Assembly: GCF_009569385.1 (NCBI RefSeq)
Contig: NZ_WBOF01000001.1
Span: 3,110,001-3,174,000, forward strand
Source of the DNA: Streptomyces kaniharaensis
Lineage (GTDB): Bacteria; Actinomycetota; Actinomycetes; Streptomycetales; Streptomycetaceae
Reading direction: 5' to 3'
DNA: 64,000 bases
Part shown: piece by piece, positions 3,402-63,143 of the stretch
Position numbering within the stretch: the first letter of the stretch is position 1
How the letters are laid out: each line of letters opens with the position of its first letter
Notes under the pieces: generated by a model
Database searches by the model: none
Told to the model about the DNA's origin: nothing
The model's input: the letters and a program-made list of their open reading frames with translations, nothing else
Program-made: the position numbers and the translations under genes

Positions 3402-3560
3402 ATGACCAAGTGGGAATACATGACGGCACCCCTGCTCGTGCACGCCACCAAGCAGATCCTGGACAACTTCGGCGAGGACGGCTGGGAGCTCGTCCAGGTC
3501 GTGCAGGGCCCCAACCCGGAGACGCTGGTCGCCTACTTCAAGCGGGAGAAGAACGCATGA
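3402..3560 (+). CDS. DUF4177 small protein
   Basis: 52 residues starting MTKWEYMTAPLLVHATKQIL, with the DUF4177 pattern of a WEY strand, GEDGWELVQV and a short final strand (VAYFKREK). The function of the family is unknown. It overlaps the next gene by ATGA (3557-3560), so it is co-translated with the RidA-type protein; the same pair stands beside the ArsA-like genes in mycobacteria. Start chosen from homology and the -10 box 6 nt upstream. It is too short for most ORF callers but well supported. Confidence 0.88.
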   Translation: MTKWEYMTAPLLVHATKQILDNFGEDGWELVQVVQGPNPETLVAYFKREKNA

Positions 3561-60027: not shown

Positions 60028-60264
60028 GCGCCCGGGTGCCGCGGGCAGGATCTCCGGCGCCGCGGGCAGGACGTCCGCCAGTCCGCTGAACGCGAGCAGC
60101 TCCCGCAGCGGGCCGCTCGCGTTCAGCAGCCGCACGCCCACGCCGTGCCGGGCGGCGGCGAGCCGCAGCCGGGCGAGGGCGTCGACGACGGCCAGGTCGG
60201 GGGCGGTGAGGGCGCCGAGGTCGCAGGTCAGCGCCGGGGCGGCGGTCGTTCGCTTGGTCTCCAT
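59935..60264 (-). CDS. STAS-domain protein overlapping the sigma gene 3' end
   Basis: 109 residues from the ATG at 60264. A STAS-type core in CDLGALTAPDLAVVDALARL, LRLAAARHGVGVRLLNASGP and LRELLAFSGLADVLPAAPEI, then a Glu/Gly-rich tail. The final 93 bp lie antisense inside the convergent sigma-factor gene, including the region encoding its last 30 residues. STAS proteins of this type oppose anti-sigma factors, so a functional tie to the sigma factor is possible. No strong ribosome site. Confidence 0.78.
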   Translation of the reverse strand: METKRTTAAPALTCDLGALTAPDLAVVDALARLRLAAARHGVGVRLLNASGPLRELLAFSGLADVLPAAPEILPAAPGRLLRGQPGRETEQREHHVGVEEVGEPGEPAL

Positions 60265-60387
60265 GCGGATTGGACTGCGCCGACGGCCCCGGCTCATCGG
60301 TCCGGTGCGAAACGGCCACCGCCCGACCGGCGGCCGGGCGGTGGCAGAGTAGGGCCTCAGAAACCACCGTGCCCGAGGAGGACCGCA

Positions 60388-60879
60388 GTGCCGACCGACC
60401 CCGTGAAGGCCCGTGAAGAGTGGCTGGCGTCCCTGCCCCGGATCTACGCGGCGGCCGGCTGCCTGCTGCGGGACGAGTCCGGCCGGATCCTGATCGTGAA
60501 GGCCGGGTACCGCGAGCACTGGCAGTTCCCGGGCGGCACGATCGACCTCGGCGAGGGCCCGGTCGAGTGCGCCGTGCGGGAGTTGGAGGAGGAGACCGGG
60601 ATCGTCAAGGCCGCCGGTGACCTGCTGGCGATCTCCTGGACCCACCCCTCGGCCGAACTCGACCATCCCGCCGAGCACTTGCTCTTCGACTTCGGCACCG
60701 TTCCGGACGGCACCCCCGTGACCGTCCCGGCCGGTGAGCTCGACGACTACCGCTGGGTCACCGAGGAGGAGGCCTTGGAGCTGCTCGGCCCGGCCCGTTC
60801 GGCGCGGCTGCGGGCCGCGCTGGAGGCGGCCGTCGACGGGCGGGTGCGGATCGTCACCACGCACGTCTCGGGCTTCTGA
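60388..60879 (+). CDS. NUDIX hydrolase (MutT-like)
   Basis: 163 residues from a GTG with GAGGAGG 6-7 nt upstream. NUDIX box: GGTIDLGEGPVECAVRELEEETGI, of which G-x5-E-x7-REx2EExG is intact. A central strand with AISWTHPSAELDHPAEHLLF and the acidic C-terminal helix follow. Hydrolyses a nucleoside diphosphate linked to another moiety; target unknown. Its 3' palindromic terminator (60896) is shared with the convergent Clp_N gene. Confidence 0.87.
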   Translation: MPTDPVKAREEWLASLPRIYAAAGCLLRDESGRILIVKAGYREHWQFPGGTIDLGEGPVECAVRELEEETGIVKAAGDLLAISWTHPSAELDHPAEHLLFDFGTVPDGTPVTVPAGELDDYRWVTEEEALELLGPARSARLRAALEAAVDGRVRIVTTHVSGF

Positions 60880-60937: not shown

Positions 60938-61693
60938 TCACGGCTGCGTCGGGTCCGCGCTCCGGGCGGCGATGATGGCGGTGATCGCCTCCGAGACGAA
61001 GGTCTCCGTCTCGGCCCGGTCCACGTTCAGGTCGGCGAGCACGCCCGTGCCGTTCGCCTGCTCCAGCAGGGCGAGCAGGATGTGCTCGGTGCCGACGTAG
61101 TTGTGCCCGAGCTTGAGGGCCTCGCGGAAGGTCAGCTCCAGCACCTTCTTGGCCTGCGCGTCGAACGGGATCAGCGCGGGCAGTTCGTCGGCGGGGGCCG
61201 GCAGGGCGGCGCCCGCCGCGGTGCGGACCGCCTCCGCGCTGACGCCCTGGGCGGCGAGCGCCTTGGCGCCGATGCCCTCGGGTTCGGCGATCAGGCCGAG
61301 CAGCAGGTGCTCGGCGGTGATCTCGGCGTTGCCCGCCTTCCTGGCCTCCTCCTGTGAGACCACGACGACGTGCCGGGCCCGGTCGGTGAAGCGGGCGAAG
61401 CCCTGGCTGGGGTCGAGGTCGTTGGGGGTGGCGGGGTCCTTGGGGACGAAGCGCTTCTGGGCGGCCTGCTTGCTCACGCCCATGCTCCGGCCGATGTCGG
61501 TCCAGGACGCGCCGGAGCGGCGGGCCTGGTCCACGAAGTGGCCGATCAGGTGATCGGCGAGGTCGCCCAGGTGGTCGGCGGCGATGACCGCGTCGGACAG
61601 CTGGTCGAGCGCGTCGGTGTGGACCTTCTTGATCGCGGTGATCAGGTCGTCGAGGCGCAGCGGAGTCGTGCTGGGAACAACGGGATTCTCCAT
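60938..61693 (-). CDS. Clp N-domain protein with HTH
   Basis: 251 residues. N-terminal helical region, then a helix-turn-helix (RRSGASWTDIGRSMGVSKQA AQKRF, 60-84) and two Clp_N repeats: ARHVVVVSQEEARKAGNAEI/TAEHLLLGLI and LELTFREALKLGHNYVGTEH/ILLALLEQ. No AAA+ domain, so it is not a Clp ATPase; such proteins may bind ClpC-type clients or DNA. Two similar TCAAC palindromes lie at and beyond its start codon and also upstream of the divergent GNAT gene, suggesting autoregulation. Confidence 0.87.
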   Translation of the reverse strand: MENPVVPSTTPLRLDDLITAIKKVHTDALDQLSDAVIAADHLGDLADHLIGHFVDQARRSGASWTDIGRSMGVSKQAAQKRFVPKDPATPNDLDPSQGFARFTDRARHVVVVSQEEARKAGNAEITAEHLLLGLIAEPEGIGAKALAAQGVSAEAVRTAAGAALPAPADELPALIPFDAQAKKVLELTFREALKLGHNYVGTEHILLALLEQANGTGVLADLNVDRAETETFVSEAITAIIAARSADPTQP

Positions 61694-61695
61694 GC

Positions 61696-61740
61696 GTCAA
61701 CCGTAGGTTGTCGATGCAGTGTCGTCAACCGATAGTTGAC
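61696..61740. promoter_or_regulatory. Two GTCAAC palindromes between the Clp_N and GNAT genes
   Basis: GTCAACC GTA GGTTGTC (61696-61712) and GTCAACC GAT AGTTGAC (61724-61740): imperfect palindromes of 17 bp, centres 28 bp apart (2.7 turns). The first begins 3 bp upstream of the Clp_N start codon. They could be operators for the HTH/Clp_N protein, whose gene borders them. Confidence 0.55.
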
Positions 61741-61783
61741 GATGTTGCCGGGTAGGCTTCGAGAGGTCGGAGGACGGAGCGGA

Positions 61784-62383
61784 GTGAACGTGTCGGACAT
61801 GACCGCCGAGCTGCGGATCCTCACCCTGCCCGAGCCCGAGGTGCCCGCCGAACTCAAGCTCCAGGTGGCGGAGTTGCAGGATCTGGCCTGGCCGGGCCCG
61901 CCCGGCCCGTCCGGCGGGCCGGTGCACGATCCGGCCCTGTGCCCGGTCTCGCTGCTGCTCCTGGACGGCGCCCGGGTGGTGGCCGCGCTGGACGTGCTCT
62001 CCAAGGAGCTCGTCCACGCCGGCCGGACTTACGCGGCCAGCGGGCTGTCCACCGTGGTCACCGACCCAGCCTGCCGCGGCCTCGGGTACGGGCGGCGGCT
62101 GGTGGCGGCGGCCCGCGACGCCGCCCGCGAAGGCGGCGCGGACCTCGGACTCTTCACCTGCGACCGCGGGCTCCGGGGCTTCTACGAGAGCGCGGGCTGG
62201 GCGGTGCTGCCGGGCGCGGTGCTGGTCGGGGGCACGGCGGAGGAACCGTTCCCCAGCGACCGGGAGGGCTTCGACAAGGTGACGATGGCGGCCTTCTTCA
62301 CCGCGCACGCCGAGCGCCACCGGGTGGACTTCCCGCACAGCCGGATCGCCCTCCACCCCGGGGCGATTGACCGGCTCTGGTAG
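61784..62383 (+). CDS. GNAT-family N-acetyltransferase
   Basis: 199 residues from the GTG at 61784; GTG 61790 and ATG 61799 are equally plausible. The GNAT core is clear: the acetyl-CoA P-loop TDPACRGLGYGRRLVAAARD (R/Q-x-x-G-x-G/A), then LGLFTCDRGLRGFYESAGWAV, the conserved FY strand-helix. A TAGGCT -10 lies at about 61753. The acceptor substrate is unknown; divergent from the HTH/Clp_N gene and probably co-regulated. Confidence 0.82.
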   Translation: MNVSDMTAELRILTLPEPEVPAELKLQVAELQDLAWPGPPGPSGGPVHDPALCPVSLLLLDGARVVAALDVLSKELVHAGRTYAASGLSTVVTDPACRGLGYGRRLVAAARDAAREGGADLGLFTCDRGLRGFYESAGWAVLPGAVLVGGTAEEPFPSDREGFDKVTMAAFFTAHAERHRVDFPHSRIALHPGAIDRLW

Positions 62384-62402: not shown

Positions 62403-63143
62403 TCAGAAGTCCGGCAGCAGGCGGGCGCGGACGGCGGCGATGTCGGCGGGGGAGACCCCGGCGGCGAGCAGGTGGGCGGCCGGGTCGAAGCCGTCGAGCG
62501 CGTCGGCCAGGGCGGCCTCGGCGGTGGTGCCGGCCTCGGCGAGCACCGCGTCGATCCGGTGGTAGGGGTCCGGCAGGCCCAGCATGCCGTACAGCGGGCG
62601 GACGTTGGGGCCGCTGAGCAGGTAGTCCTCGGTGATCGCGGCCGGTTCGACGCCGGCCAGGGCGAGCAGCAGGAGGGTGGCCAGGCCGGTGCGGTCACGG
62701 CCGGCGCCGCAGTGGATGACCAGTCCGCCGGGCCGGGCGCCGGCCACGGTGGTGATCAGCTCGGCGGCGGCGTGCGGGCAGTGGTCCAGGTAGGGGCGCA
62801 GCGCGAGCGGGGTGCCGTCGAGCCGGCCGTACGTCTCCCACCAGGCGGGGCCGGCGAGCTCGTCCAGCGGGATGCGGATCAGGTCGATGCCCTCGGGGAG
62901 CGGGAGGAGCGGCTTGTACTCCTCGACGTTGCGCAGGTCGACGACGGTGCGGATGCCGTGGTCGAGGAGGGCGTCCCAGCCCTCGGCGGTGAGGCGGTCG
63001 AGGTTGTCGGCCCGGACGACGGCGCCGCGGGCGGTGAGCCGGCCGTCGGCGGTGGGCAGTCCGCCCAGGTCACGGACGTTCAGGCAGCCGTCCCAGACGA
63101 GGGTGCGGTCCTCGGTGGTGGTCGGCGTGTACGTCCGGCTCAT
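62403..63143 (-). CDS. Tyrosine/dual-specificity phosphatase-like protein
   Basis: 246 residues, of the actinomycete PTP type that includes MptpB. WDGCLNVRDLGGLPTADGRL opens the domain; the signature HCGAGRDRTGLATLLLLALA carries C-x5-R (CGAGRDR) with the phosphate loop. A general-acid Asp is not marked with certainty. It may act on phosphotyrosine, phosphoserine or phosphoinositides. GGGGAAC lies 5 nt before the ATG. No kinase gene is adjacent. Confidence 0.88.
   Translation of the reverse strand: MSRTYTPTTTEDRTLVWDGCLNVRDLGGLPTADGRLTARGAVVRADNLDRLTAEGWDALLDHGIRTVVDLRNVEEYKPLLPLPEGIDLIRIPLDELAGPAWWETYGRLDGTPLALRPYLDHCPHAAAELITTVAGARPGGLVIHCGAGRDRTGLATLLLLALAGVEPAAITEDYLLSGPNVRPLYGMLGLPDPYHRIDAVLAEAGTTAEAALADALDGFDPAAHLLAAGVSPADIAAVRARLLPDF

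Follow-up and report, generated by a model that had tools for sequence, protein, structure and literature searches.

The window analysed here is a stretch of 64,000 nucleotides from Streptomyces kaniharaensis (contig NZ_WBOF01000001.1, positions 3,110,001 to 3,174,000), in which a gene for a two-domain regulator and a gene for a GNAT acetyltransferase diverge from a short intergenic region that holds two palindromes. The features of this region are collected in Table 1.

Table 1. Features of the clpC2 locus, in window coordinates.
Feature	Position	Strand	Description
Proximal operator	61696-61712		GTCAACCGTAGGTTGTC; adjoins the regulator ATG, 2 nt apart; -10 hexamer TACGGT inside, on the - strand
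Distal operator	61724-61740		GTCAACCGATAGTTGAC; promoter-side half includes the -35 hexamer TTGACG, on the - strand
Predicted leaderless clpC2 promoter	61700-61728	-	TTGACG-17 bp-TACGGT; start expected at or beside the ATG; predicted from sequence
clpC2	60938-61693	-	251 aa; N-terminal dimerisation/HTH domain aa 14-83; two Clp_N repeats aa 98-235; no AAA+ module
Helix-turn-helix	61445-61504	-	aa 64-83 (W64 to V83); helices 64-71 and 75-82 (AF2 model; second model similar)
Residue 75 (K)	61469-61471	-	First residue of the recognition helix
GNAT acetyltransferase gene	61784-62383	+	Divergent; Pfam Acetyltransf_9 8.5e-8; likely GTG start; SD-like GGAGG just upstream

The regulator was described in the initial annotation as a helix-turn-helix (HTH) protein with Clp_N repeats but without an ATPase, and this description agrees with our analysis: two Clp_N repeats are recognized (Pfam, 4.6e-28), no ATPase follows them, and the open reading frame ends at residue 251. 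Its N-terminal domain (aa 6-73) matches residues 5-72 of Rv2667 (PDB 8ADA, fragment 4-72) with E=1.4e-32, while the closest solved relatives of its C-terminal domain, which has a fold like that of the ClpC1 N-terminal domain, are ClpC2 C-domains (9P2P, 8B9O, and 8AD9; E 2e-48 to 2e-35). No paper associated with PDB entries 9P2P, 9P39, and 9P4H was found in our literature search. On these similarities, the regulator is identified as ClpC2, the homolog of Mycobacterium tuberculosis Rv2667, and among named organisms K. aureofaciens has the most closely related locus (93% protein identity).

The ligand-contact and dimer residues of Rv2667 all have counterparts here. The dimer salt bridge D46-R57 corresponds to D47-R58, both invariant among 52 orthologs, and the cyclomarin contacts F96, F172, E181, and Q94 align with F99, F177, E186, and Q97, of which F99 and E186 are invariant in the same set. 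At residue 177, the pocket phenylalanine, 30 of the 52 have F and 22 have Y, and affinity for cyclomarin-type ligands may vary by species. The arginine pair R185/R189 of Rv2667 is represented by R190, at an invariant position, and by K194, a conservative replacement of a residue that is arginine in 48 of the 52 orthologs. Secondary Clp-like matches in the genome were considered as extra copies of ClpC2 and rejected, as they are ClpC1 and ClpB. The N-terminal domain of ClpC1 resembles ClpC2 in its Clp_N repeats and in the cyclomarin-type pocket residues F, F, and E, but ClpC1 carries AAA+ modules and lacks the HTH. That this genome's own ClpC1 retains the pocket residues indicates that a target to protect exists in this strain.

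Both palindromes could be located exactly as first noted, with a spacing of 28 bp from start to start and the first of them 2 nt from the regulator start codon (ATG at 61693-61691, - strand). Each spans 17 bp, with a gap of 11 bp between them; the distal site is an exact CGTCAAC-n5-GTTGACG, and the proximal site is one base off (GTTGTCG). Exact matches to GTCAACYNNNRGTTGWC are confined to these two palindromes in the window, and a pattern search of the whole 8.77-Mb genome, the method used for all genome-wide operator scans, returned the same two only. Sites with one mismatch were at background genome-wide in this pattern search (23 matches in total versus 18 for the reversed control), and no further operator targets stood above background in the 8.77 Mb.

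The window contains many short palindromes with up to three mismatches (26 matches versus 13.8 expected), which could suggest that the pair arose by chance. However, the exact twin pattern occurs in 142 of 200 genomes of the family, in at most one place each, and the reversed-pattern control gave 0; moreover, all 104 clpC2 loci that we compared carry the pair at fixed spacing. These counts refute chance, which we regard as vanishingly improbable. The 104 loci were gathered by protein similarity alone, independently of the operator, and span Streptomyces, Kitasatospora, Rhodococcus, Micromonospora, Parafrankia, Pseudonocardia, Saccharopolyspora, Actinomadura, and others. In every one of them both sites are present, 11 or 12 bp apart, and the ATG follows the proximal site after 2-3 nt. 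The pair was likewise found in 206 of 206 non-redundant clpC2 loci of an enlarged set, which was partly fetched via the operator pattern. When the family genomes are divided by the presence of clpC2 (protein match at E < 1e-40), the twin pattern falls in 142 of 154 genomes with the gene versus 0 of 46 without it, by a hand tally of two tables, and the listed places of the pattern coincide with clpC2 wherever a genome has a listed clpC2 match, as checked by eye. In one 33.8-kb contig (G000:C18), an identical 17-base sequence recurs five times, at 3498, 9896, 16233, 22630, and 29046, in steps of about 6.4 kb, which resembles a head-to-tail array of long modules.

The two palindromes also frame a putative promoter of clpC2, whose -10 element ends 6 nt from the ATG (TTGACG-17-TACGGT). 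In nearly all of the 104 loci, the distal site contains TTGACR and the proximal site TAnnGT, with a 17/18-bp spacer between the two and 6-7 nt from the latter to the ATG. Only in the proximal site is the central TA fixed (103-104 of 104 loci); in the distal site it varies, as would follow if the TA were required by RNA polymerase and not by the repressor. This geometry fits a leaderless transcript that would be blocked by dimers bound at both sites. A consensus promoter scan missed the clpC2 promoter because its -10 element is too far from TATAAT, and the weaker TCGACA-18-GAGAAT promoter that the scan proposed was judged spurious.

An operator of this kind has a published counterpart. Mycobacterial ClpC2 binds CGTCAAC-n5-GTTGACG located 1-2 nt before its own ORF, with a second copy upstream in many actinobacteria, and these sites overlap the -35 and -10 elements of a promoter that is probably leaderless (Taylor et al. 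2023, PMC10030653). In the same study (PMC10030653), DNA binding and autorepression were demonstrated by EMSA and reporter assays, cyclomarin A bound to the Clp_N domain was shown to lift autorepression, and the released ClpC2 was found to act as a sponge that protects ClpC1 in mycobacteria. The locus described here resembles that of mycobacterial ClpC2 (Rv2667 and the M. smegmatis homolog) in domain plan, length, absence of AAA+, ligand-site and dimer residues, and in a twin CGTCAAC-n5-GTTGACG operator laid over -35 and -10 in leaderless geometry. It differs in belonging to another genus, in the GTTGTCG half of the proximal site, in Lys194 in place of the second C-domain arginine, in the divergent GNAT gene alongside, and in a covariation, described below, that points to the N-terminal HTH as the DNA reader. 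The initial annotation had proposed that the HTH/Clp_N protein uses the palindromes as its operators, that the Clp_N domain serves as the sensor of a transcription factor, and that the circuit might be undescribed. The first proposal is borne out insofar as the ClpC2 family and its operators match the published circuit, and the second agrees, by analogy, with mycobacterial ClpC2. The third does not hold given the findings of Taylor et al. (2023): the circuit was described in that year, and what we have here is a known circuit in a new host, a Kitasatospora-like actinomycete.

The operator pair had further been read as shared with the GNAT gene. The geometry behind that reading is real in this strain and in K. 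aureofaciens, where the GNAT gene lies nearby in divergent orientation. Just past the distal site, a TAGGCT at 61753 resembles a -10 element and could serve the GNAT direction, in which case bound ClpC2 might block it incidentally. As a switch that co-controls clpC2 and GNAT in one circuit, however, the pair finds little correspondence among relatives: across the loci compared, GNAT adjoins the operator only in these two strains. Most other Kitasatospora loci have a Y_phosphatase3 gene on the same strand upstream of clpC2 with no GNAT gene between, in one genome (G189) the GNAT gene lies about 600 bp away with another gene intervening, and no GNAT homolog was found within the flanks fetched for any locus outside Kitasatospora. 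No good -35 element was found in the GNAT direction, and the -10 constraint is seen in the clpC2 direction only. Comparison of intergenic regions thus shows that the clpC2-GNAT pair is not conserved while the operator goes with clpC2 in 206 of 206 loci. Lack of conservation of the pair had been named in the initial annotation as a refuting outcome, and by that standard the shared-circuit proposal fails. The NUDIX gene downstream of clpC2 (60145-60879) and the Y_phosphatase3 gene (62403-63143) are, unlike GNAT, conserved neighbors of clpC2 in Kitasatospora. We therefore consider joint control of the two genes unlikely. The position of GNAT next to the operator is, as judged from these genomic comparisons, an accident of location, with local interference by bound ClpC2 possible.

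The family comparison also bears on which part of ClpC2 recognizes the operator. For the M. tuberculosis protein, DNA reading was proposed to occur through the C-terminal (Clp_N) domain, by a helix at 174-189 bearing R185 and R189, as the R185A/R189A substitution weakens EMSA binding and repression (PMC10030653); the invariance of R190 here is in keeping with that proposal. Nevertheless, the position of R185 is also arginine in this genome's ClpC1, and DNA binding by mycobacterial ClpC1 shows little specificity. Conservation in ClpC2 peaks instead at residues 46-83, a near-invariant block that ends in the HTH. The crystallized fragment of Rv2667 (4-72) stops just before the second, recognition helix of this motif, so the HTH could not be seen in that structure. 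When the N-domain model alone (pLDDT 70.6) was searched with Foldseek, no match was significant (best E 0.9), although HTH proteins headed the list. A related HTH region occurs in the RelI antitoxin (Rv2664, PDB 9SDC; PMC13284704), which matches the N-domain here at E=2.6e-5 but lacks a Clp_N domain, partners the RelS toxin, and in the view of its authors shows no evidence of DNA binding; the 2026 RelI paper had already described this part of ClpC2 as an HTH on the basis of sequence comparison (PMC13284704).

The operators exist in two forms, with an outer base pair of either C..G or T..A, and residue 75 of ClpC2 covaries with this pair, which is the new observation of this work; no earlier report of it was found in the literature searched. 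In a discovery set of 51 orthologs, residue 75 was K with all 35 C..G operators and R with all 16 T..A operators, and all 102 clear cases among further loci followed the same rule, some of them from the same or close species as the discovery set. Among the 206 non-redundant loci, lysine accompanied C..G in 113, a mixed form in 3, and T..A in none, and arginine accompanied T..A in 77, a mixed form in 10, and C..G in 3. Residue 75 is the column most closely tied to the outer base pair: in a Pagel test, run with a tree from which residues 74-75 had been left out and fitted for those 14 of 176 variable columns whose raw correlation was highest, it gave a likelihood ratio of 97.5, followed by residue 74 at 44.6 and the other fitted columns at 31.7 or below. 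Residue 194, within the proposed C-domain reader, shows no covariation with the operator. These are single-gene trees with weak branches, and on strongly supported branches only one independent switch is countable, too few for a sign test; the count of switches was therefore taken from bootstrap replicates. On 60 bootstrap trees, 13-19 changes at residue 75 were counted, and each replicate contained at least 10 independent concordant pairs and 0 opposed.

Two distant relatives stand apart. One of them (L180 in G250:C1; 39% identity) combines R75 with a C..G site and carries QQRF instead of QKRF, and the residue-75 code seems from this case to shift outside the core family. A distant ClpC2-like gene (L173 in G335:C197) has two operators in which one half-site is changed mirror-fashion (GTCAACCATACCTTGAC and GTCAAGGTATGGTTGAC), perhaps a third specificity type.

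Taken with the conservation peak, the covariation leads us to infer that specific contact with DNA is made by the HTH and not by the C-domain. It is highly probable that the N-terminal HTH reads the operator, that K or R at residue 75 forms a one-residue code for C:G or T:A, co-switched at least 10 times in Actinomycetota, and that the C-domain is the ligand sensor and at most a non-specific aid to binding. Specific reading by the C-domain appears improbable, though a helper role through non-specific DNA contact is possible.

We propose that positions 61690-61745 constitute the twin operator and leaderless promoter of clpC2, autorepressed by ClpC2, read by its HTH, and released by ligand, and give this reading as a whole a probability of about 0.9. 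Its basis in this strain is the operators, promoter geometry, family membership, ligand-site residues, and covariation, all drawn from sequence, and by analogy we expect this ClpC2 to behave as its mycobacterial counterpart in binding, autorepression, release, and sponge action. One ClpC2 dimer would occupy each 17-bp palindrome, its recognition helix, starting at residue 75, reading the site and K75 or R75 setting the preference for an outer C:G or T:A pair. Two dimers together would cover the -35 element in the distal site and the -10 element in the proximal site and so keep clpC2 off. A ligand that mimics a Clp substrate, as cyclomarin A does in mycobacteria, would bind the Clp_N domain and cause ClpC2 to leave the DNA, whereupon freed ClpC2, made in excess, would soak up the ligand and protect ClpC1.

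With regard to the physiological signal, damaged or arginine-phosphorylated protein might take the place of a peptide antibiotic. Clp_N domains bind such clients, the structure of a ClpC N-domain with phospho-arginine (5HBN) is among the close fold matches, and in the mycobacterial work heat shock raised clpC2 about twofold and ClpC2 protected casein (PMC10030653). The heat effect is nonetheless small beside the 263-fold effect of cyclomarin (PMC10030653), no test of phospho-arginine on ClpC2 was found in the literature searched, and the sequence here does not separate the ligands. We hold damaged or modified protein to be a doubtful candidate for the signal.

ClpC2 blunts cyclomarin in mycobacteria, and release of its promoter therefore matters for Clp-directed drugs. 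The covariation at residue 75 leads to a corrected view of DNA recognition by ClpC2, one that can be tested directly. More generally, the switch and its geometry are conserved well outside mycobacteria, including in antibiotic-producing actinomycetes.
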